A stretch of DNA of 64,000 bases from Stachybotrys elegans (taxonomy: Eukaryota > Ascomycota > Sordariomycetes > Hypocreales > Stachybotryaceae). This document shows positions 26-57,001 of this stretch, one piece after another (the stretch's first letter is position 1; the number at the start of each line of letters is the position of its first letter). A program made the position numbers and the translations under genes. The stretch covers positions 1,860,001-1,924,000 of the forward strand of contig JAGPNK010000003.1 in the NCBI GenBank assembly GCA_020746835.1, read 5' to 3'. Below the pieces are notes generated by a model that ran no database searches, was not told the origin of the DNA, and saw only the letters and a list, made by a program, of their open reading frames with translations.

Positions 26-2428
26 ATGTCTTCCTTTAAGAGTCTCATCGTTGCCTTGCTGGCCGCCTCGACCGTCTCTGCGGTCCCCAGTCGCCCGCAG
101 AGAACCTGGGATGTCCATGCGAGTTCGCGCCGGACCAATGAGCCGTCAGGAGAGTCTTGTCCTGTCCCCAAGACTATCGAGACAACCGCCAAGGTTCCCT
201 CGCCTTTCCGCCACCTCTCCCAGTGCGAGCTGAAGAGCATCACAAACTGGCTCCAGGCTCCTGAGCGAGGTCTTAACCTCACAGACCCCTCCGCCGAGGG
301 CCTCAGCATCAGCGACAACTATGTTTGGCACATGGAAGAGCTCAAGCCCAACAAGACTGATGTTCTCAACTATCTCGACAAGGGTGAAGCCCTGCCCCGG
401 TATGCCAGAGTTGTCATCATGGAGGGCGGCAGAGAGGAACCTGGTGTTGCCGAGTACTTTGTAAGTCATGCTATTCGGCTCAACCTACCAAGCTTACCAG
501 TATAGGTTGGTCCTCTGCCAATCAGTGACAACACGACTGTTCAGCCTCTTGACTACTTCTACAACGGACGCAATGGTGCACGCATTGGATTCGATGGTCG
601 TTTCACCGATGGACCTCTTCGAACCGCCATTGATGAGTGCGTCATCAAGCACATGTCGCAGATTGCTGACATTACCATGGACATGACTGGGCTCGTCTAC
701 TATGGTAGCGACGATGAAAGGACGAACTCGGTTTACTTCATACCCAACCCTTATTCCATCGACGGCACGCAATCTGTTGCCTGGTCGACTTGGAGACGGA
801 ATGGTCTCGCCGATTACGACCTGATCAGCGATCTGTATGTTGGGTTCGATTTCCACGGTACTGATCCCTCTTTGTGGAAGCTGAGAATGATTGTCTACAA
901 CAACATCGTTTACAATTCCATCGAAGAGCTTCGTGAGGCGTACGAAGCTGGCAAGATTGAGATGCGCCCTCACGTCCCCACTGACGACTCTTTCCTCCGA
1001 AAGGATAGAAAGGGGCCCGTCCGTGAGCTCGAGGACCGCATTGCTCCCGCTATCATGGAGCCCGATGGCAAGCGCTACAAGGTCGACAGCAACAACAGAT
1101 ACATCGAGTACCTGGGCTGGCAGTTTTACACGCGTTACGACCGAGATGTCGGCATTCAGTTCTACGACATCAAGTTCAAGGGCGAGCGCATCATGTATGA
1201 GCTTTCTCTTCAGGACGCCATTGCTCAGTACTCTGGAAACAACCCCTTCCAAGCCAGCACGGGCTACATCGATAGGTTCTATGGAATCGGCGCTCAAGTT
1301 GGCCGCCTTGTCCCTGGTTACGATTGCCCATACCACGCTACCTACTGGGGCACAGAGTTCACCTCTGGGCTCAACGAGATCAGGACCAATAGCTCCATCT
1401 GCATCTTTGAGGCGGACATCGGCGTTCCCATTACGCGCCACACGGACCCCTCGTACATTCAATCCACCAAGGGCTCTAAGCTGGTTGTCCGGCAGATTGC
1501 CACCGTCGGCAATTACGACTACCTTTGGGACTACGCCTTCTACGTTGACGGAACTGTGACGGTCGATGCTCATGCCTCTGGCTACGTCCAGGGCACGTAC
1601 TACCGACCCGAGGATGAAGGCAAATGGGGTCCTCGCATCCACGAGCGTCTTTCCGGCACCCTGCACTCTCACGTTATGAACTTCAAGGCCGATTTCGACC
1701 TCGTTGACGAGGAGAACACTTTTGTCAAGACTGACATCATTGTCGAGAACGTCACGCAGCCTTGGTTCCCTGAGCGAGGCACATTCGAGATGATGCGGTA
1801 CAACATCACCGAGCTGGAGGAAGAGACACTGCTGCCCAATCCCGCCAACGGGCAGTCCATGTACACCATTGTAAACAAGAAGCACGCCAACAAATGGGGT
1901 GAGGCTCGTGGATACCGTATGCTGCCCGGTCTGAGCAACGTCCACCTGCCGGCCATCAACTCGCCCTTCTTCAACATCTCTGGACAGTTTGCGAAGCAGG
2001 CCTTCTCCGTGTCGCGTCATCACGACGGAGAGCAGCAGTCCTCCGCCACACTCAACCAGAACGTCCCCGATGCCCCCCTCATCGAGTTCTGGAAGTACTT
2101 CAACGGCGAGGACATCTCCCAGAAGGATCTCGTCATTTTCTTTAACCTCGGCATGCAGCACTACACCCGATCGGAGGACATTCCCAACACTCTGATGAGT
2201 GAGGCTCATTCCTCCATCATGTTTGCGCCTCAGAACTGGGGAGACCATGAGGGCACCGTCGATCTGCAGAATGCCATCATCTACAACCGGGATCCCGATG
2301 CAGAGCTTGTTGAGCCGGAGACGAACGGTGTGAATCCGCCCGCCTGCTATGCGCTTGGTCCTGAAGATGCTTTGCTGGGTGTGTTTGAGGGCATGGGCAT
2401 TCCCTATGCTCACTCCAAGCCTGTGTAA
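26..2428 (+). CDS. Secreted copper amine oxidase
   Basis: Two exons, 26-460 and 506-2428; the 45-nt intron starts gtaagt and ends tatag, giving 785 aa. Residues 1-19 form a signal peptide, so the enzyme is probably secreted or vacuolar. The motif VGNYDY holds the tyrosine (about Y482) that copper amine oxidases convert to the TPQ cofactor. HSH (H532, H534) and the His in GMQHYTRSEDIP (H697) fit the three copper ligands. The family oxidises primary amines to aldehydes with release of ammonia and hydrogen peroxide, often for nitrogen supply. Length suits the fungal secreted group. The 639-aa antisense reading frame is a shadow. The substrate cannot be told from the sequence. Confidence 0.95.
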
Positions 2429-23880: not shown

Positions 23881-24762
23881 ATGTCTTTATCTGTTGATAG
23901 TACGGAACGCCGTGAGGCGTTGCTGGCTGAATACAGAGACGATGAGAGCTTCGACGAGAAGCGCGTGCTCCGACTACGTTCATCTCCCACCAGATTCAAC
24001 CTGTTCAACTGGCTGGTGATTGGGCTCTTGTCCTTGTCACTGGTGCTGAACACTACCCAATTCTTCTACTACTCGCGCCCCGTAGTCTGCGCTCCTGCCA
24101 GCTACAAGGAGCCTCCCTCTAAGTACGCCCATATCAGCCGCGACAGCAAAGAGCCATACGTCTACATTACTGAGTTTGGCACGCCGAACGTGACGGTTCA
24201 GGATAAGGCCTGGATGAGCATCGACGACGACCTGGCACTGGTGGCACTGTCGGACGAGTTTGCCAGCGCGCATGACCTTCGAAAGGCTCAGCGGTTCCCC
24301 TGGGACCAGACCAAGGGTCTCTACATCCTCCACGGCATCCACAACATGCACTGCCTGAAGAACATATACATCGCCCTCCGCGAGTATCAACGCGGCGAGG
24401 AGCAGTCGCGCTCATGGCAGCACATCAGCCACTGCCTCGACGTTCTACGTCGCCAGATTCTCTGCGACGCCGACGATACGCCCCGAGCCACGGACAGACG
24501 CGCCGAGATCGTTGCTGGCCTCGGGCAGTATCGCATGTGCCGCAGCTGGGATGCCCTGGAGGAGTTCGCTAAGAAGCACACGGCCTGCTACAAGCGCCCG
24601 AATGGCGTGGAATGGGACGGGCCGAAGAAGCTGGACCGGTTCAAGCACTGTCCCCCTGGTAGCGGGTACGTAGTCACGGATGATTATGTGCCAACAGATG
24701 AGATTCAGGTCGGCCTCCCGCCGGAGAATGTAGGATATGTGCCAGAAGGGGGGTCAAACTAG
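23881..24762 (+). CDS. UstYa-like oxidase (DUF3328), first of four
   Basis: Single exon, 293 aa. Cytoplasmic N-terminus, one membrane helix at about residues 41-62, then a lumenal domain. Both family signatures are present: HxxHC at H154-C158 (HNMHC) and the second HC in HISHCLDVLRRQI (H184-C185). UstYa proteins (PF11807) carry out oxidative cyclisation or chlorination of ribosomal peptides, for example in ustiloxin, phomopsin and asperipin pathways. Just downstream, on the other strand, is a KEX2-repeat precursor, and another UstYa-like gene follows. Lack of introns contrasts with the other three copies here. Role in cross-linking the neighbouring peptide is inferred from synteny. Confidence 0.92.
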   Translation: MSLSVDSTERREALLAEYRDDESFDEKRVLRLRSSPTRFNLFNWLVIGLLSLSLVLNTTQFFYYSRPVVCAPASYKEPPSKYAHISRDSKEPYVYITEFGTPNVTVQDKAWMSIDDDLALVALSDEFASAHDLRKAQRFPWDQTKGLYILHGIHNMHCLKNIYIALREYQRGEEQSRSWQHISHCLDVLRRQILCDADDTPRATDRRAEIVAGLGQYRMCRSWDALEEFAKKHTACYKRPNGVEWDGPKKLDRFKHCPPGSGYVVTDDYVPTDEIQVGLPPENVGYVPEGGSN

Positions 24763-25204: not shown

Positions 25205-25549
25205 TCAGAAAGCGTCCGCCACGTCAATCTCCTCGCTCCGCTTGAAGGCATCAGCGACGTCGATGTCTTCACTACGCTTGAATGCGTCCGCTACATCAAT
25301 CTCGCTCTCGTCACGCTTGAAGGCGTCAGCGACGTCAATGTCCTCCTCCCCGCGCTTGAAAGCATCGGCGACATCAATCTCGCCCTCACTCCGCTTGTAG
25401 CCCTCGTTGACAACGGCAGCGGCAGCAGATCTTCCTACAGGGGATGTTAGTGTCTTTCTGTGGCGCCATCCATGGTACATGCCTGTCGGGAGAGCAGTAG
25501 CAATAGAAAAAAGTCCGAGGAGGACAGTGGGAATGGTTGTGGCCTTCAT
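25205..25549 (-). CDS. Dikaritin-type RiPP precursor with five KEX2-spaced IDVADAF repeats
   Basis: Start ATG at 25549, in frame with a clean signal peptide (MKATTIPTVLLGLFSIATA). After a short leader come five repeats of 10-11 residues: a variable acidic start (SEGE, GEED, DESE, SED, SEE), the invariant heptapeptide IDVADAF, then Lys-Arg, the KEX2 cleavage site. The last copy ends at the stop without KR. This is the architecture of UstA-like precursors. A 48-nt in-frame stretch (25482-25435) looks like a GC-AG intron: ACAG-gcatgt start, CACTAAC branch site, CTGTAG end. Spliced protein is 98 aa, unspliced 114 aa; the repeats are unaffected. The core has Phe but no Tyr or Cys. It lies between two UstYa-like genes. 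The mature product is unknown. Confidence 0.88.
   Translation of the reverse strand: MKATTIPTVLLGLFSIATALPTGMYHGWRHRKTLTSPVGRSAAAAVVNEGYKRSEGEIDVADAFKRGEEDIDVADAFKRDESEIDVADAFKRSEDIDVADAFKRSEEIDVADAF
25208..25405 (-). repeat. Five in-frame coding repeats of the peptide precursor
   Basis: Five tandem units of 36-39 nt (the last lacks the KR codons). The DNA of the units differs at third positions while the IDVADAF residues are kept, which suggests selection on the peptide and not a very recent duplication. Confidence 0.88.
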
Positions 25550-26579: not shown

Positions 26580-27432
26580 ATGGCGAGTCAAATCTCAAGA
26601 AAAGTCGAGTACTCACGACTCGTAGAGAATGAAGAAGGCCGGGAGGTCTCTGAACCTGTCTCTAAACCCGTATCATTTCTTCAAAGACCCGCTTACTCTC
26701 TTCATCTTATCATTATTGGGTTGGCTCTTGTTTTGACAAGCGGAGCCGGCTTCTTCGCAGGTGTTCTTTGGACACAGAATGCCCTGAACATAAACAACTA
26801 CTCGTCCTCGACGGCACCAAAAATTCCATTGCCATATACACAAACTGAATTCGTCTACTCTTCTCCATTCTCGTTAGCACCACCGCAGGGCGAGGGGTCT
26901 GGAGATGAGTCAGAGCCAATTTGGGACGACCTGGTACCAAGTCAGTTGTTAATATCTGGATTCTGAATAGGAATACCGATTTGTCACATTATCGTTGTGG
27001 AGTATGCTGACGATGAATGGTGTAGATGGTCTGGGCTACTTCAGAGACGGCAAGATTGCGCCCAAGGTCTCCATTCCAACCACATTTCATCAGCTGCACT
27101 GCCTTTACATTCTCAGACGGGCATACTACTCCACCAGATCTGACAGCCAGCTCGAGTCGTTCGATCTTGGCAAGAATCGGACCATCCACGCGGCCCATTG
27201 CTTCGACTACCTCAAGCAGACTATTACATGTTCAGTCGACAGCACTGTGGAGCCATACGAAGACGACGACAACACAGATGGATTCCTTGGCAGCGGATTC
27301 CTGCGGCAGTGTCGAAGCTTCGACGCACTTAAACAATACGTCGAGAAATGGAGGGTGTTCAACGCAACAGGCTTCTTAGCGGCTGGGATCGCCCACGGTA
27401 AGGCTCATGTGCATGGAAGCGAGGGGCAATAA
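26580..27432 (+). CDS. UstYa-like oxidase (DUF3328), second of four
   Basis: Two exons, 26580-26940 and 27026-27432; 255 aa. The donor is gtcagt, the acceptor ggtgtag, and the join gives VPNGLGYFR, the usual block before the first motif. One membrane helix at about residues 38-60. Signatures are HQLHC (H142-C146) and AAHCFDYLKQTI (H178-C179), the form closest to the classic UstYa motifs. Divergent from the peptide precursor and upstream of the FAD oxidoreductase. With the first UstYa-like protein it would make the pair of oxidases (UstYa/UstYb) found in dikaritin clusters. Activity on the IDVADAF peptide is inferred. Confidence 0.93.
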
Positions 27433-28234: not shown

Positions 28235-29835
28235 ATGAGTCTCAAGCTCACAGACGATCTCAAACCTCACCTCTCTGCCAAGGCTAAGGTCTACATCCCA
28301 AGCGATGAGGAATTTCCGGCTCTCGTCAGTCGCTGGAGAGAATATCATGCGCCCACTGTCGCCGCCCTGGTCCAGGTAGAGACGGAGAAGGACATTCAAG
28401 AATCGGTAGGTCACTTCGTGTTGACAATCACGGCAATAGAGTGTTTGTGCCTGGTCGCTAACAGATGCCCAGATTCGCTACGCCAACAAGCACAATGTTG
28501 CCTTCTTTGGACGTGCTGGAGGCCACGGCGCCACGGAAGCCATGGGCCTAGCACAAAACGCGCTCCAGATTGACTTTCGCAAGATGAACTACGTCAAGAT
28601 TGCTCCGGATGGCAAGTCAGCCAAGATTGGCGGCGGTGCGACCGTCAAGGATGTCGTCGACACTCTGGAGGCGCAGGGGAAGCGAACGGGTAATACCTGT
28701 CCTAGTCTTTGTTTGCCGGGAAGCAAATACTGACGTACTGCATTTTCAGTTACCGGAATATGCGAGTGTGTAGGGTTCTCGGCACCTGCTCTTGGCGGAG
28801 GCCACGGATGGCTGCAAGGCGAATACGGCTTGACCGCCGACCAGGTCATCTCAGCACGCCTGGTACTCCCCAACGGTGATGCTGTGACAGTATCCGAAGA
28901 TGAGAACCCCGACCTCTTCTGGGCTATTCGAGGCGCCGGCCACAACTTTGGCTTTGTGTCTGAGTGGACGTACCGCATCTATGACAGGAACCCGGAAGCT
29001 CCGAAGTGGTCGTATGAGATCTTCATCTTCTCCGGAGATAAGCTAGAGGCCCTTTACACCCTACACAATGAGATGCAAAAGAGCCAACCTGCTCATGCAA
29101 TCCATTGGAGCTACATCCTCCGAGTCGCCCAGATTAACCCTGACCACGTATGTACTCTCAACCGCCTCCCAATACTGAAATATTAATGCTAACATGTCCC
29201 AGCCCATAATTTGGTACGGCATCATCTACGATGGTCCTGAGGCCGAAGCTCGTGAATATGCTAAGCCACTGCATGATATTGAAGCCATAGACATTCAGTC
29301 TGGAGTGGCAACGACCCACGAGCTCGCCGCTCTCACATTCCAGGACGTCGATGGCCCTGGATGTGCCTACGGTCTGACATCTCTTCGGTACCCCATCGGT
29401 CTGAAGAGTTTCAACGTCCCGGCAGTCAGGAAGGTGTACGACTACATTGACAAGAGTTTCCAAGAGATTCCTGAGATTGCAGGCTCATTCTTTCTCCTGG
29501 AAGGCTACCCAACCCAGGCCGTACAGGCCGTTGACGAAAAGAGCACAGCTTTCCCCCACCGCAGTGATGAGATTCTCGTCACATCCTACGTCCAATATCA
29601 GCCCGACCCGAGGATTGATCCTCTCGCTGATAACTACGGAAGGACCCTGCGCAATATTCTGCTGGAGGCCAGTGACGCCCCGACGCAGCTCCGGGCCTAT
29701 GTCAACTATGCACATGGGGATGAAGATCTGCGGGAAGTATATGGCTGGGAACCTTGGAGGCTTGAGAAGTTGAAGGAACTCAAAGCCAAGTGGGATCCGA
29801 AGAATAAGATGAAATACTACATGCCGATTGTGTAG
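28235..29835 (+). CDS. BBE-type FAD-linked oxidoreductase
   Basis: Four exons: 28235-28405, 28473-28689, 28750-29147, 29203-29835; 472 aa. The FAD_binding_4 domain shows FFGRAGGHGATEA, whose His is the usual covalent flavin attachment site in this family. APALGGGHGWLQGEYGLTAD and FWAIRGAGHNFGFV follow, and a BBE domain ends in YVNYAHGDEDLREVYG. The Cys of bicovalent members is not in its usual setting (GICECVGFSAPALGGGHG), so bicovalent flavin is uncertain. No signal peptide, unlike plant BBE. Such enzymes oxidise alcohols or form rings in metabolite pathways. Lying downstream of the second UstYa-like gene, it is a candidate tailoring enzyme of the peptide cluster. Confidence 0.92.
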
Positions 29836-31012: not shown

Positions 31013-32581
31013 TCAGCCTCTTGTCCAGACTTCCCTTTCACTCCCAGCTACGAGACACCGGTAAAGAGCGCTGTCTCTTGGCAGCTGGTCGCTGCGTAGC
31101 CTCTGCAGAATCGTCGGTATTTCTTCGTGGAAGTAACCCCACTCCAATATCATCAACCAGGCATCGACTGTCTCCGCCGAGCCCGTTCTCCCATCAAAGG
31201 CAATTTGACATGCCCGCCAGTGGCCCCTTAGGTCAAGGTCCCATGCCACCCTTCTCACGAAACTTCGGGCAATCTCCTTGCCCAAGGCATTCAGACGGAA
31301 TAGCTCTAGCAGAGTACTGCAGTAACCACTGTATGCCATTCCAATATTAGTGCCTCCAGAGACGGACAACCACAGTCTGTCTCTCTGTAGGTCTTGCCAG
31401 CCAAGGCGGAGCGCAGTCTCAAACGCGTGCCAGACGCCCAGTTTGTAGGAGACTTTGATTTGCGCCCGGGCTCGTACTTTCAGCAGAGGCAGAATCGCAT
31501 AGATCCTGTCCTCTTGGTAGCGGCAGTCTTGCCGACCAAAAGCGGTGAATGCTTGGTAGAACGGAATACCATCATCTGGATCTATTGGAGAGAATCCCAT
31601 CAGATCGCCCGCGATCCGATCAGGACGCGGAGAGATGTTTCTCGAGTGTCGCAGATCAAGGAGATTCCGACCATGCCGGCCTTGAAGTGCATCGATAGCC
31701 CGGTGCAGTTTATCCTCTGCTGATCTCGCGACCAAAACAGCTTCGGACCCCAGAATAGGCGCACCATGCTGCTCGGCATTGCTCAGCTCAACCTCTAAGC
31801 GGACGAGACCAGGGATGTACCCCGCGAGAAGGTGGCCGTCAAAGGCCTGTCGGCCTAACACAACAGTCCATTTCTGAGGAGCGAGGAGAACCTCTGGCAC
31901 AACCCACATTCGGGTCCAATAAGTGTCTCGGCATAAAATTCCAAATGCATACAAGTCGTCCCGGGTCCATGATGTAAATGAAAATATTTGAGCCACATCC
32001 AAGGGAGTCATCGTCGTGGGGCCCCCAGAGATGACTGCACGCGGTCCATTATCGAGTTTGGAGTTTAGGGACCCGAGCATATCATGTACTTGTCGTTCCA
32101 TATTCTCGTCAGAACAAATGGGCTGGCCGAGGTAGGTGATGACATGAGAAGCGCCCCTATATATGTCCTCCATCTTTGGAACCTGGGATGCCTTTTCGTC
32201 TAGGTCGAACTGATTGATACATATCGCGTCGATAAATATCGGTATAGAGCAGTCGAATTCCACTGTAGCGGCGTCTCCTACTTGGCTCCAAGCAAGAGCA
32301 TCTTGGATGAACTCAAAAAGCTTGCCGCGGATCCAGAACTGCTGGTCTCCTACCCAGACCAGCTTCAGATCCTCGGCACCTGCGGTTCCCCATGCGTATG
32401 ACAAAGCGTGATATGTTGTTTTACTGAGGTCGGCAAAGGAAACAATATGAAAAGTAATGGCGTAGAGCCCTTGGCGTGCTACGGGCTCGAGTGTGACCAG
32501 GCGCAGCTGTTTAGATGCGTCGATGGAGGGGTAGGTGAAGCTGTTTTCCGAATTGCGTGCTTGGTCCAGATCTAAGCTCAT
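31013..32581 (-). CDS. HET-domain protein (heterokaryon incompatibility type)
   Basis: Single exon, 522 aa from ATG 32581; an upstream in-frame ATG at 32623 would add 14 residues. The HET signature (PF06985) is clear: YHALSYAWGT, then IPIFIDAICINQFDLDEKASQV and MEDIYRGASHVITYLG, within residues about 40-170. The rest is variable, as usual. HET proteins trigger cell death after fusion of unlike strains or act in other recognition roles. Here a role is not assigned: HET genes are often found singly near islands of accessory genes. Confidence 0.9.
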   Translation of the reverse strand: MSLDLDQARNSENSFTYPSIDASKQLRLVTLEPVARQGLYAITFHIVSFADLSKTTYHALSYAWGTAGAEDLKLVWVGDQQFWIRGKLFEFIQDALAWSQVGDAATVEFDCSIPIFIDAICINQFDLDEKASQVPKMEDIYRGASHVITYLGQPICSDENMERQVHDMLGSLNSKLDNGPRAVISGGPTTMTPLDVAQIFSFTSWTRDDLYAFGILCRDTYWTRMWVVPEVLLAPQKWTVVLGRQAFDGHLLAGYIPGLVRLEVELSNAEQHGAPILGSEAVLVARSAEDKLHRAIDALQGRHGRNLLDLRHSRNISPRPDRIAGDLMGFSPIDPDDGIPFYQAFTAFGRQDCRYQEDRIYAILPLLKVRARAQIKVSYKLGVWHAFETALRLGWQDLQRDRLWLSVSGGTNIGMAYSGYCSTLLELFRLNALGKEIARSFVRRVAWDLDLRGHWRACQIAFDGRTGSAETVDAWLMILEWGYFHEEIPTILQRLRSDQLPRDSALYRCLVAGSEREVWTRG

Positions 32582-32809
32582 GTTGTATAACAGGGACTTG
32601 AAATAATGATTACAGGTACGCATAAATCTTGCAGGTTGGAAAGCTGAGCTGAGCTGAGGGGCGCTATGCGATGTGGTTACATTATTCCATCACGTGCCGT
32701 GTCTGCCTAGACAGCCAAGCTGAATCGGACAAGGCAGAATGGGTCTATGCGGCGAAACTGTTATAAATTCACGACATCACAAGGACTGAGGCTGAATGAG
32801 CTACACAGC

Positions 32810-34203
32810 CTAGCTGAACTCGGCCACCTTTTCCAACGCGGCAGCAATGTGTGCCTTCGGGTCGAGCTCGAGGAAAGCCCACCGGGGTCCCAGAGCCGGC
32901 ATCAGCTTCGCCGGATCCAGCCCGGCCTCCGGATCCATCCCGCACAGAATGGTGCCAGTGCCACGGCTCGAGTCGACCACCTGCTGGCCCCTCGGGCGCC
33001 TGACAGCATCGTACGCCAGAAAGGCAGCATCAATGTCCTTGGGCGATGTCACCCTATTCTTCAACAATGCGGCCAACACCATGACGTCCTCGAAAGCCTG
33101 GCCTGCCCCAGCTCCCTGCCACGGGGTCGTCGCGTGCGCAGCGTCGCCAATGATGCAGACGCGCCCCTTGGCGTACGTGGGTGTCTGCTTGTGCTCCCAC
33201 TGCGAGTAGCCCTGCGGGTTGGGTTGCTCCAGGATGAGCTTCAATGCATTAACAAATGTCATGGACGCTTGGTGCATTCTCGCGCCCACTCACATCAATG
33301 ACGCCTTTGGCGATTGGTCCCTCCATCCAGCTACTCAGCGTGCTCTCCAAAAATTCCCGTGTGAGGGGCCGCTTTCGATCCTTGGGAGGATCGCGTTCCA
33401 CAGCCGAAATGACCATCTGCACCAGCGTTCCGTTCTCCAATACGTCGTGCATGATGAAGGCGCCGTCCCCAAGCCAACCGTACTGGCGGTCGAGCTTGAA
33501 CAACTCCTCACCCAGGGTCGCTTTGGCGATATCGAAGGGCGCGAGAACACGACAGTCCCAGAACCCGCCGGGCGACGCCGAGAAATCTTGGTCCTGGTCC
33601 GACTTGACGACGTGGCTGCGCACCGTGCCGAAGACACCATCTGCGCCGATGACGGCGTCAAACTGGGACACGGTATCGTCTTCGAAAGTGATTGTGACGC
33701 CGTCTCCCGACGTGTCAATCTTGGTCAACTTCTTGTTTGGGTGCAGAATGTCCTTGGGGAGTGGCGCAAGAAGCTCGCGCAGCAACGAAGCGCGGTGCAC
33801 GATGAGCTCAGGCTCGCTCTCCATTCCGGCAAAGTCGAGCAGCAAGCTGCCGGCCCCTGGCCCAGAGCCCTACATCCAACGGTTAGTCTTTGAATCCATC
33901 CAAACCCGGGCTGAGCATGGACCAGACGGATGAGCCGTTGCTTCAACTTACAATCATCAGGCGCGTGCTGGCAATGGGAACGCTGCCGGCCTTTTGCAAC
34001 ACCTCTTTCAAGGACTCTACCGACTCCTGCAGTGCTGCCTGCGCATTGGTCGATAGTCCAACGGCAGCGCCCCGTTCAGAGAACTCGGGAGCAGACTCGA
34101 AAACATTGACGGCGATGTGCGGCAGCTTGTAGAGAGCATTAGCAAGTGTGGCTCCCGCGAGACCTCCGCCAATGATGGCCACGCGGACTGTGTCGTTTGC
34201 CAT
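32810..34203 (-). CDS. FAD-dependent monooxygenase (salicylate hydroxylase-like)
   Basis: Three exons on the minus strand: 34203-33952, 33869-33294, 33238-32810; 418 aa. The N-terminus has the Rossmann motif IIGGGLAGATLANAL (residues 10-24). FDAVIGADGVFGTVRS is the DG motif and GDAAHATTPWQGAGAGQAFEDV (from residue 307) the GD motif of group A flavin monooxygenases. These hydroxylate aromatic or polyketide substrates using NAD(P)H and oxygen. The third exon starts after a GAAG acceptor. It lies back to back with the HET gene and head to tail with a 7-TM gene; link to the peptide cluster is possible but unproven. Confidence 0.92.
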
Positions 34204-37297: not shown

Positions 37298-37937
37298 ATT
37301 GAATGTATTGGAGAGGAGGCCGGAGCTTCTGATGTTGTGTGAGTGCTTTGAGATGTTCTGCGACGCTGGGTGACGAACATCCAATTCAAATGACGGGAGT
37401 CGATTCTCACTTTATATATTTCAAGTCCATACGAACAAGAGTGAGTATACCTTCCCTGAACGTCCAGTTGATGCAGTCGTGTCCAAGATCCTGTCACGCC
37501 GTCGGCCGACGTATCCTCCAGCATGGGCTACGAGTTCAAGAAGGTACACGTAATATCTGAAAATGCAACCTTCCATCTTACATGCTTATTGGGGGCGGCG
37601 ATTAGGCGTAGGATTTGCTCGACCCCTCTTGTGAAGCCTCGGATAACAAGTCACGATTGCAGGGATATCGGACGCACCGCAGTTCATGCCTCAGAAGGCC
37701 CGCTGGCATACATCAGAAAGAACTTTGTGCTGCGTTGGGACTTTTGCCCTTTTGTGTAGTCGCAAGCGGAAGTATTATTCGTGCGGAAATTTATCCAGAT
37801 GCCATCACTCACGGGCATCCAGTTGGTCTATGCTTGATCGGATAACTTGGCTTTTGTCTTGTGCCATCTCGGCGGCCTTCTCTCGCCACAGTTTCAACAT
37901 CATCAAATTACTTGCTTGTGCCTTGGTCAACGTCAAG
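37298..37937. promoter_or_regulatory. Divergent promoter of the small secreted protein and third UstYa-like gene
   Basis: 640 nt between the two ATGs. TATATAAA on the minus strand at 37412-37419. No other gene seen. Confidence 0.5.
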
Positions 37938-38947
37938 ATGGAGAGCAAAGACGCGGATTTCGAAGAGTCTCGACCTCTCACTCACGAATACCACGATCGT
38001 TCAGAACAACAAGCAAGAAGTTATGGTAAATCTTTCGCAGCCAGGCTCATGATCAATTCGTATTTGGTCCTGCTTCACATTACTATTGTGGCACTGGTCG
38101 TTGTGCTCATGAGCGAGACATCAAACACTTCACCGTCGCCAGCGGCTGAGGGTATCAGCTGGTGTAAGTGCAGTCAAGTTTTTGTATCACCTCTGTCGCG
38201 TGTTTTTCTCACAACCATAACAGCGCCTGCGAGAAATATCGTCGAGTATGAAGTCAACGGGGAACATGCTCTCAATCATGAGGTCTACAGCCCTTACTCT
38301 GGCCCCCCGACGGACGAACAGGACCAAGCTTGGACGCATCTTATTGAGCGTGAGCACCGTGGTCCAAACGGAGATGAGAAATGGCTGACAAGATTCAGCA
38401 ATCTTCTTCAGCGCGTCGGCCGAAGAGCTCGAGCGAGCCGGCGAGTCTTTGCACAATGCTGTGCAGATGACAGAAGGCGGTTATCTGGCCACCATCTCTG
38501 TCTACCACGAGCTGCATTGCCTGGTCAGTACCACTTCTGAGTCAAAGTCCCGCTTCTGATGTGCATTTCAGCGACAACTGCGATGGTTCCTCTACAGTGA
38601 CGTCTTCTACCCTAACAGGACCATGGAGGAGGACAAGTATCTCCATGGGCACCTTGGTGAGTACCCACGTTTCTCGCCACTACGAACGGCACTGACTGAC
38701 ATGGTATGCGGCAGATCATTGCTTGGAAGCCCTGCGGTTGAGCATCATGTGCCATGGGAACACGGGTCTCTACTCCTTCTCCTGGGACGACCCTGAAGCG
38801 AGACAACCGACGACTAGATCCAACGCCAGGTCTACATGTGTCAAATGGAGCTCGATTGACGACTGGGCACGGTCCAGGAATGGGTCCATCGATCCGCTAC
38901 TGCGGTGGCCTCTCAGGGGGGATCACCGAGCCGGGTCTGGGTCGTAG
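37938..38947 (+). CDS. UstYa-like oxidase (DUF3328), third of four
   Basis: Five exons: 37938-38163, 38224-38349, 38399-38523, 38572-38656, 38715-38947; 264 aa. Membrane helix at about residues 38-56, then the lumenal domain with DEQDQAWTHLI, the HELHC motif (H154-C158), a FLYSDVFYPNRT block and DHCLEALRLSIMC (H189-C190). Introns fall in places usual for this family, including between the two motifs. It is about 10 kb from the precursor-UstYa cluster and divergent from a small secreted protein gene. Whether it belongs to the same pathway cannot be told from sequence. Confidence 0.92.
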
Positions 38948-40782: not shown

Positions 40783-40789
40783 CTAAGAA

Positions 40790-41955
40790 GTAGGCAGAGA
40801 GATAGCCTGCTTGTTGCTGCTTACAAGGGAGACAGCAGCTTTCCTTCCGCGTTCTCCTTGAGGAACTTGTTGAGTGCTGCCCGGGTAGCATTGTCCGGGT
40901 CCAGCCTGGCAAGAGATTCTTCCTATTGAGCTTGGGATCTGTCCTCCTGTCTGGCCTAGCTTGCGTGGTAAAAAGTGTGTTTTCAGTGATAAGCCACTTG
41001 GGAGAAACTCAGCGGCACAGAACCGTCGAGCTGAAGTGTGCTCCCGCCTCGGCCTCTTTAATGTGTTTGGAGATATCGAGGTCAACAGTTTTGTGAGCAA
41101 AGGATTAACCCAGGTGAGGTCCATTGTCAGAACGATCTCAGAGATACGGTGTAGCATTTCTTTAGAAGGAGTCTGGTTCAAAGGGCCCATGGCAGTGCCG
41201 GTAAACTGGTGGATAGGCCATTGTATGCCGAACGTCGGGTTCTTTGGTGGGTGTGTTCCATTTCCAAAAGTACTCGACTGGAGAACCCTCGACTCCGCGG
41301 AGAGCTTGCCATTTCAAAGGAGTACTGATATCCGGACTATGGATCTGTTTGGATAAAGGGACAGTAACAGGGAGTGTATTGATATTAGGGTTGTATGCTA
41401 AGGGGGCCTATGGCAGTACATGGGCACCCCAAGTTTCCGGTGGCCGCGATCCTAATCTTCGCCCACAGCCCTGACTATGGCCTTCGCCGGTAGCCCAGAT
41501 TAGGGCCTATAATCCTGACCTTCATTTACCTACCCCAGCATACAGTACCTTTATCGATCGACCCCTGTCAATCGTTTTATCCAAGTACAGTATGAATATC
41601 AATGCTCTTTCAAAGTGTTATCTTGTTTCGGACCCATATAAGGAACCCAAGGGTAGACAAAGTTGGCAACAGAGTTCATCCCTCAACACTTGGTTGTATT
41701 TTTTTACGATCCAATGAAAGCGAAATAATAAAGTGTCATATGCCTTCTCTCTATATATCCAGCGGTTTCAAGCATGCTGGCGAGATGCTCACCCATCAAT
41801 GCCCACCCGTGATCTTGATTGGCGTCGCAGGACGGGAGCCATTGGTTCAGTACGAACCAAGCGTAAGTCTGCTTCGCTTGTTGAGACACAGGCCTGGCAT
41901 CGGAAGGCCGTGGGGTTTCAACAACAGACAGAGACATGATGCTAGAAAGTGCCAC
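40790..41955 (-). pseudogene. Decayed aromatic prenyltransferase (DMATS type)
   Basis: Read on the minus strand in several frames. The first part has GWALMGEHLASMLETAGY followed by LYYFAFI, the N-terminal block of dimethylallyltryptophan-synthase-like enzymes. Then comes EGSPVEYFWKWNTPTKEPDVR, the block that normally follows the substrate pocket start (41215-41300). Last are EAEAGAHF and GLSLKTHFLPRKLGQTGGQ near 40950-41080. Stops and frame shifts separate the blocks and a large middle part is missing, so no functional enzyme can be made. DMATS enzymes prenylate indole or other aromatic rings in secondary metabolism. Family call rests on these blocks by eye. Confidence 0.75.
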
Positions 41956-54593: not shown

Positions 54594-55701
54594 ATGAACA
54601 AAGATTGGGAGGCACAGCAACCGTTGGTGGGTGCTCCTGGGTCAGAGGCTTCTGGCTCAGATGTCGAATTGGCATCGCCACCTCCAGAGCAGAACAGCCC
54701 CAAGCAGAGCAGCCGAAGAAAGGTGCTGCGGCACCTGCCGGCGATTGCGGGTGTTATATTTGCCTGCCTTGGGTCTGCCTGGATTGGGTCACACTACTCT
54801 CCCTATCATTCATTGGATAAAGAATGCTCAGCACATACGGTGCAGTGGTGTAGGTCCCCAAGGCCACCTCAATTCTGGTATCTGGTACTGATATCTGATT
54901 GTCATAGCGCCCGTACTGCGAGATGTATCCATCTCCTACAGACCCCAGCATTTCAACGGCTCGTTCATGCACGAGGACATCTATCGCAAGCCGGGGTCGA
55001 AAGAGGTCGATGAAGCCTGGGAGGCGTTAGGTGTTGACTGTAAGAACGCATATTCCTGTTCATACTATTCGACTTTCTAACTCGCCAGATCGCCCGGGAA
55101 TCATTTCCAAGGAGGACGGCCTGGCTAGTGGTCTTACAGAGTCCTTTGTTCAACGTGCTGACAAGTATGGTGGCGGCTTTATCGTCAACGTGGAAGGCCT
55201 TCACCATTTACACTGCCTGGTATGACTGCATACTGCTGAAAAGGAACTGCTCTAACAGACTATAGAACCTGCTTCGAAAGTCCTTGTACTTCAACTACGA
55301 CAGATACAAAGAAATGAAGCATCATGCCTTTCAGAATGACCCGTACATTCTGCAGTTGCACGTCAGTATGTATATTTCTCTCCCGAGTTATGGTATCCGC
55401 TGACCACGCCAGCTCATTGCCTTGACGCACTGAGACAAGTTCTCATGTGCAACGTCGATACAGGCGTGCTGGGTCAAGTCTGGGTTCACCCGAAGGCGCC
55501 CGCGGCATTCCCCGACTTTAACACCAAACACGTCTGTAAGAACTATAAAGATGTCCAAGCTTGGGCAGAGAAGATCCAGGTACGTATAAGAGACACGGGT
55601 TGCCGAGATTCGCTAATAGTGGTTAGGCTCCGCCAACTGACGAGTTGCCTGAAGATTATCTCGCACCGCCTCCTGGCGATATTGAAGAAGACATTCCTTG
55701 A
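54594..55701 (+). CDS. UstYa-like oxidase (DUF3328), fourth of four
   Basis: Six exons: 54594-54849, 54908-55039, 55089-55219, 55266-55365, 55413-55579, 55627-55701; 286 aa. Basic stretch SSRRK then a membrane helix at about residues 47-66. The lumenal part has EVDEAWEALG, RADKYGGGFIV, the HxxHC motif (HHLHC, H168-C172), the block LRKSLYFNYDRY and THCLDALRQVLMC (H208-C209). The C-terminus is Pro/Glu-rich. It has the most introns of the four copies. Unlike copies 1 and 2 it is not beside a repeat precursor of the IDVADAF kind but is divergent from a tyrosine-rich secreted protein. Function on that protein is a hypothesis. Confidence 0.92.
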
Positions 55702-57001
55702 TGTTCATTATGAATTGTACAAGACGCATTCCATTTCAATTGACGCTCTCATATTCCTAGCATTGTTACAAGGAGGGTCGCAAGGTGGATAATAAGGTGA
55801 CATAAACGACATATGTGGAGGTTCGAAGACTTGAACTGCTTGGTTTTATACAAACTACTCCTTTTTGTAACTCATAGGAGTTTTATGCCAGGCCTCCTCT
55901 CAGGTTGTTTCAAGTCTTAATAGTGAACTCGTGCCAACAAGACGGCGTGCACTCCCACATTCTCAACCTTGCCTCTCAGTCTATTTATTATGATAGTGTT
56001 GACTGGTTCAACTAAGACATATACCTCATATCCGACAAACCATTTCCAGAAACCAGAAGATCTGGCTACCAAAGAGACCATGGCGTTTTTCCCTCCCGTC
56101 GATTTGACGCTCCAAACGTTGCCAAGAGCAGTGGGTGGATCCTATGGTAAAAGGATCATACAGAATGGTTATCGACCATATCACTTAGAAAGCAATACAC
56201 TTGGATCGTAAATTATGGCAAGTTAATGCTTTGTCTTTTCCAAGAGCTGTCTATTGCTGCGCTTTATGCCAACGTCTCTAGCTCCGAGAACTTTTAGCAA
56301 CTACCATAAGAACCAGTCATGGGTTGAAGCGTAGACCCAGTTAGATTTCAATTGCGCCGGACAGAAAGCAAAGAGAACAAGAAAAGTGGTAGCTAGTACA
56401 GTACATGGGAAGATATCCCTGCTAATGTAAAAAGTAATCTTCGTCCACCACGTCTTACTGTTTATGTTTTATGTCCCAGGCGAGCTTGATTGACCCGTTT
56501 AACCCACACCGACCTACAATCATAGGATTTATTTGAAACAGAATGATCATTCTTGCCATTGCCTTTTGCGGGCAGCTACTCTTTTACGAGATGATGGACA
56601 CACCGCTGGTGACTCAATCTCTCGACACCAAGATTCCAATGGCGAGAATGTAACACCCTCAACGAGATGTTTGGTGTTTGGCATAGAATCTGCAAACCGT
56701 CATGGTTAAATGGTCCGGCTTGTATCGGCACAAGGTTCTTCAGCTGATGACCGCACGTGACAATCTGGATGTGCCAGCAGCCACCGGTACAACTACGGGT
56801 GAGTGGTTAGGAACGTGATGTTTTTGTCGGGAGAGTTGAGCGTCTAGGCAGCTTACAGCCAGACAAGGGAACAAGGACCCAGTTGGCACTACGCCCGGCC
56901 TTCTTTTGCGGGTCTTTCATTTGGTCGGCTGGAATGAATCATGGCATTCAGCAGCCCCGCAGACAACCAGACTCCTCGTTTCCTGATCTGGGGGCGAATC
57001 C
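55702..57001. other. Intergenic, no gene seen
   Basis: 1.3 kb, AT-richer than its surroundings. Frames are short (80 aa or less). Nothing recognised. Confidence 0.5.

Follow-up and report, generated by a model that had tools for sequence, protein, structure and literature searches.

Precursor and UstYa genes at the locus

The window analyzed here, a 64 kb stretch of DNA from Stachybotrys elegans (Hypocreales), carries on its reverse strand a single-exon gene (25205..25549) for a KEX2-type repeat precursor of 114 amino acids. The coordinates given in the original prediction are exact; that is, the frame opens with an ATG at 25549, closes with a stop codon at 25207-25205 and contains no internal stops. 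The signal peptide claimed for it is probable at residues 1-19 (25493..25549, reverse strand; the place of cleavage is approximate), based on hydropathy (highest 11-residue mean of 2.24, at residues 9-19) and on an ALP(T) motif near the N-terminus that is common to most homologs. The hydrophobic stretch extends to about residue 19 and is followed by LPT and then by a leader of about 30 residues up to a Lys-Arg site at residues 52-53; the leader, this first site and the first acidic stretch together occupy residues 20-57 (25379..25492, reverse strand). Visual inspection of the leader brought up one possible short intron, which was dismissed because splicing it would disrupt the core frame, and a bacterial promoter and terminator scan was inapplicable because the host is a fungus.

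The rest of the protein consists of repeats of one heptapeptide, IDVADAF, which occurs at residues 58-64 (25358..25378), 71-77 (25319..25339), 84-90 (25280..25300), 96-102 (25244..25264) and 108-114 (25208..25228), all on the reverse strand and with start-to-start spacings of 13, 13, 12, and 12 residues. Upstream of every core there is a Lys-Arg site and then three or four acidic residues (SEGE, GEED, DESE, SED, and SEE). Hence, the five units proposed originally are present, each with Lys-Arg ahead of its core, but only four of the five cores have Lys-Arg after them because the fifth forms the C-terminus of the protein. The repeats were also recovered at the DNA level, where pairwise base differences among the five cores amount to 39 synonymous vs. 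0 nonsynonymous; therefore, it is the core peptide itself that is maintained, and the repeats are not recent copies of each other. These data show that selection acts on the core letters within the S. elegans precursor gene, and synonymous-only variation, together with the homologs described below, rules out a chance repeat. Searched against the proteins of its own 43.4 Mb genome, the precursor matched only itself, and a simple scan revealed no second Kex2-repeat gene in the 64 kb window.

The precursor had also been placed between two UstYa-like genes, and Pfam matches bear this out on both sides. UstYa1 (DUF3328; 23881..24762, forward strand; 4.1e-21) encodes 293 amino acids in one exon, with copper motifs HNMHC at residue 154 and HISHC at residue 181. 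UstYa2 (DUF3328; 26580..27432, forward strand; 4.2e-23 on the spliced form) encodes 255 amino acids in two exons (26580-26940 and 27026-27432; intron 26941-27025 spliced out), with HQLHC at residue 142 and HAAHC at residue 175, and its spliced model is 100% identical over the full length to the public S. elegans protein B0I35DRAFT_425006. The two are distant relatives of each other (35% over 91 residues). Both HxxHC motifs were present in 114 of the best 120 of 122 UstYa1-family matches (one motif in two) and in 76 of the 79 UstYa2-family sequences among the matches listed (one motif in three); in the CctR homodimer, HxxHC(x)nHxxHC is described as forming a dicopper site (PMC12435403). No solved structure for the UstYa1 family was found by sequence at E up to 10, and AlphaFold modeled the two UstYa proteins with too little confidence (pLDDT 49.1 and 66.6) for a fold search.

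Homologs of the precursor

The search of fungal proteins that the original prediction had recommended (E up to 10, 195 candidates) returned eight homologs of the precursor, with E values from 3.1e-17 to 4.2e-8. They come from Monosporascus, Parahypoxylon, Nemania diffusa, Anthostomella pinea, Xylaria scruposa, Xylaria telfairii, and Apiospora arundinis, with the eighth on an 850-base contig; that is, seven of the eight belong to the Xylariomycetidae (six Xylariales plus Apiospora, of the Amphisphaeriales). None was returned from Aspergillus or Penicillium in this search.

Splitting the nine precursors at basic pairs, with any last letter allowed, gave 36 segments from the first core onward, and 34 of these end in Phe (34 of 37 if the degenerate first segment of P0002 is counted). 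The three exceptions are this degenerate segment, ahead of the first P0002 core, and the cut-off gene-model ends of P0004 and P0006. The commonest letters of the last seven residues were I (32 of the 36 segments), D (33), V (32), A (31), D (32), A (32), and F (34), and exact IDVADAF cores numbered 27 across the nine precursors. Tyr, Cys, His, and Trp were all absent from the last seven residues of the 36 segments, so that the lack of Tyr and Cys noted originally extends to the cores of all nine precursors; a lone Tyr lies in the acidic stretch ahead of one P0007 core. Leader length differs among the homologs, two of the basic pairs of the Apiospora precursor are Lys-His, and one basic site in Parahypoxylon is Lys-Lys-Arg. 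P0006 is extended at its N-terminus, and a clear signal peptide is missing from P0007, both perhaps gene-model errors. In seven of the eight homologs, Lys-Arg and Lys-His pairs are both missing from the roughly 11 residues ahead of the first core, which implies that the mature N-terminus is either fixed some other way or irrelevant.

Linkage of the precursor with UstYa genes

Linkage in other fungi was read from the locus tags of protein records and from equal-sized contigs under the same species name, using UstYa matches at E 1e-20 drawn from candidates with common short words (the best 120 of 122 for UstYa1 and 79 rows for UstYa2). Among the matches listed, four of the eight precursor homologs have a UstYa1- or UstYa2-type partner, with adjoining locus tags in three of the four. 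In Anthostomella pinea, UstYa2 (Uu.00g010960), the precursor (010970), and UstYa1 (010980) repeat the three-gene order of the window; this is the only one of the eight with both partners beside the precursor among the matches listed. In Monosporascus, UstYa2 (DL768_002059) adjoins the precursor (002060); in Parahypoxylon, UstYa1 (AAE478_007620) adjoins the precursor (007621); and in Xylaria scruposa, UstYa2 and the precursor are both on a contig sized 457,707. The other four homologs, i.e., those on the 850-base contig and in Nemania diffusa, Xylaria telfairii, and Apiospora arundinis, have no partner on the same contig among the matches listed, and the UstYa2-like match of Nemania diffusa is on a different contig from its precursor. 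Such absences weigh little because the UstYa lists are limited by E value, short-word filter, and number of rows. The original prediction had been made to depend on homologs not being consistently free of UstYa-like neighbors, and, with partners for four of the eight among the matches listed, they are not.

The two UstYa types also occur together more widely. A UstYa1-type gene was found on an equal-sized contig for 32 of the 79 UstYa2 rows among the matches listed (the window's own and two further contigs included), and these contig pairs occur in Xylariales-type species, Aspergillus, and Penicillium. A single gene number separates the two in Penicillium concentricum (007407/007409), Penicillium robsamsonii (005192/005194), and Xylariales No.14919 (067110/067130). 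Since the Aspergillus and Penicillium pairs come without a precursor match, the pair may serve other cores there. In the S. elegans genome we found 28 UstYa matches, forming about 23 gene-like groups, of which four are in the 64 kb window. When 23 groups were placed randomly, UstYa groups at most 3 kb away on each side of a random point arose in 1 of 200000 trials; this placement test and the recurrence of the linkage rule out a chance UstYa neighborhood of the precursor.

A probable dikaritin-type precursor with a Tyr-free core

We consider it likely that 25205..25549 encodes a fungal RiPP precursor of the dikaritin kind within a compact cassette of UstYa1, precursor, and UstYa2. Given that parts of the cassette recur in other fungi, its product is very probably a peptide natural product, of which we found no description. 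The proposed likeness to dikaritins (the ustiloxin, phomopsin, and asperipin-2a type) is supported in design, i.e., a secreted Kex2-repeat precursor, with secretion judged here from hydropathy, adjoining UstYa (DUF3328) genes that carry two HxxHC motifs each. The difference lies in the rings, which are Tyr-based in dikaritins, whereas the IDVADAF cores have no Tyr, making Tyr-based dikaritin rings impossible on them; in particular, the core Tyr that the ustiloxin/phomopsin subgroup uses for its ether ring was found in 0 of the 36 segments. Hence, judging from its residues, IDVADAF is a new Tyr-free core family within the known dikaritin-type RiPPs. With the victorin cluster, the cassette has in common a C-terminal Phe, which is reported to be cross-linked in victorin and ends 34 of 37 segments here. 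The comparison with victorin is thus reasonable but unproved, and the two-residue AF likeness on its own would have little meaning. Kex2-processed repeat proteins (KEPs) at large, including pheromones, share the precursor architecture, but recurring UstYa partners set the present family apart from them.

A survey of 1461 strains (PMC7329392) reports 7878 Kex2-repeat proteins, 22% of which have DUF3328 genes nearby; 65.6% of the repeats in this DUF3328-linked fraction contain Tyr, and repeats with Tyr are also described for its type G-6 KEPs, which include Monosporascus and Hypoxylon. A 2022 review contrasts five reported dikaritins with at least 838 Kex2-repeat protein types, 22% of the genes having UstYa neighbors (PMC10512285). 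A survey of the Hypoxylaceae describes one RiPP cluster as ustiloxin-like and states that its authors are unable to judge whether the RiPP diversity is thereby covered (PMC8403587). For Anthostomella, the accessible text of the genome paper puts the predicted fungal RiPP clusters at 23, with no mention by name of the IDVADAF cassette (PMC10763133). The strings IDVADAF and DVADAF were not found in the paper texts searched; supplementary KEP lists, which were outside this search, may hold homologs. Related core strings matched a P450 protein-sequence paper, which we took as unrelated, and our search for literature on UstYa in Xylariales found none.

Known precursor logic suggests the following route. 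The precursor, if secreted as its N-terminus indicates, would undergo Kex2 cleavage at each Lys-Arg pair, and a carboxypeptidase would then trim the basic pair to give Phe-ended peptides, a step that the fifth core would not need, its Phe being terminal already; the three or four acidic residues ahead of each core would be either trimmed or retained. UstYa1 and UstYa2, as membrane-bound copper enzymes that possibly act as a pair, would oxidize the core at the C-terminal Phe and/or at aliphatic C-H bonds, without a phenol. Phenol, imidazole, indole, and thiol groups are all missing from the core, which leaves the ring or C-beta of Phe and the C-H bonds of aliphatic residues or Asp as the expected sites. 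The calculated [M+H]+ is 750.3668 for the unmodified heptapeptide, 748.3512 after loss of 2H, and 1095.4840 for SEEIDVADAF. By analogy, the likeliest outcome may be ring closure at the C-terminal Phe, as in victorin, for which a review describes cyclization through an internal Leu and the C-terminal Phe (PMC9233826), or desaturation, which UstYa homologs are reported to perform in phomopsin (PMC10512285). More speculatively, and with distinctly less confidence than in the assignment of the cassette itself, IDVADAF peptides could form a family that is ancient and almost unchanged among fungi, in which a dedicated UstYa1/UstYa2 pair cross-links or desaturates carbons of Phe, Val, Ile, or Asp in the absence of a phenol, and whose role is that of a conserved signal or metal binder as opposed to a diversifying toxin. 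The cassette, with its highly conserved Tyr-free core, would represent a small test system for UstYa chemistry on Phe and aliphatic carbons, and for why two different UstYa proteins stay together.

Neighboring genes and alternative explanations

Beyond UstYa2 lies a gene for an FAD-linked oxidase (FAD_binding_4/BBE; 28235..29835, forward strand; 472 amino acids in four exons), whose membership in the cluster is possible and unproved. Downstream of the cassette there follow a HET-domain gene (31013-32623, reverse strand) and an FAD monooxygenase gene (FAD_binding_3; about 32810-34203, reverse strand), the end part of which resembles salicylate 1-monooxygenase with a score under the model's cut-off. 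Further along, the window contains two more UstYa-type regions, UstYa3 (37647-38878, near 38.4 kb) and another at about 55103-55789, as well as a Trp_DMAT-type prenyltransferase exon (40786-41313, reverse strand). It is conceivable, albeit on balance doubtful, that the cassette is part of a larger cluster with a more decorated product, to which the FAD oxidase (28235-29835), the FAD monooxygenase, UstYa3, and the prenyltransferase would contribute. Four UstYa regions within 64 kb and the proximity of the FAD_binding_4/BBE, FAD_binding_3, and Trp_DMAT domains would fit such a cluster; however, the HET-domain gene separates the FAD oxidase from the FAD monooxygenase, and UstYa1 and UstYa2 gave no tblastn match to UstYa3 or UstYa4 in the window at 1e-3, which indicates that these regions are not recent copies of each other. 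The extra UstYa regions and the Trp_DMAT exon raise the possibility that a second biosynthetic cluster adjoins the first. Tyrosinase, methyltransferase, and peptidase domains were absent from the 50 frames scanned of the 144 frames of at least 110 amino acids. A copper amine oxidase gene (506-2425, forward strand; Pfam 4.7e-111) is located about 23 kb from the precursor, and no evidence links it to the cassette.

Alternatively, the precursor might yield a linear secreted signal, i.e., it would be a pheromone-like Kex2 repeat protein free of UstYa modification, with the UstYa genes serving other chemistry. Conservation of the core between a Hypocreales species and Xylariomycetidae would suit a signal, and beyond the UstYa pair the locus has no assured tailoring gene. 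We nonetheless regard this explanation as improbable, since UstYa partners accompany four of the eight homologs, once in the identical three-gene order (among the matches listed), and since mating-factor repeat proteins are reported to be almost all without DUF3328 neighbors, with three exceptions (PMC7329392), whereas here UstYa genes, expected to be missing around a linear pheromone, lie on both sides of the precursor.

Descent of the cassette

Quick trees were computed from 40 and 37 chosen rows, without bootstrap. In these, UstYa1 of the window is one of seven sequences in a group (99) whose other members come from Conoideocrella (Hypocreales), Golovinomyces, Hypoxylon argillaceum, Xylariaceae sp. 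FL0594, and two further contigs; UstYa2 groups with FL0594 and Xylaria scruposa (98). The grouping of UstYa1 and UstYa2 of S. elegans, a Hypocreales species, with Xylariales sequences in these trees of chosen rows without bootstrap suggests that the cassette may have been horizontally transferred. Distances of UstYa1 and UstYa2 are correlated over 32 pairs (r 0.81, 0/5000 permutations), a result that is also expected from a common species history. A silent cluster, i.e., genes intact by sequence with a product no longer made in S. elegans, would be compatible with the gain from Xylariales that the UstYa trees allow, but seems quite unlikely given three open frames, a spliced UstYa2 identical to a public protein, intact active-site motifs in both UstYa proteins, and cores that vary synonymously only. 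Finally, the UstYa1 homolog P0015, which is 68% identical, is on a 1012-base contig labeled Golovinomyces magnicellulatus and is perhaps contamination from another fungus.
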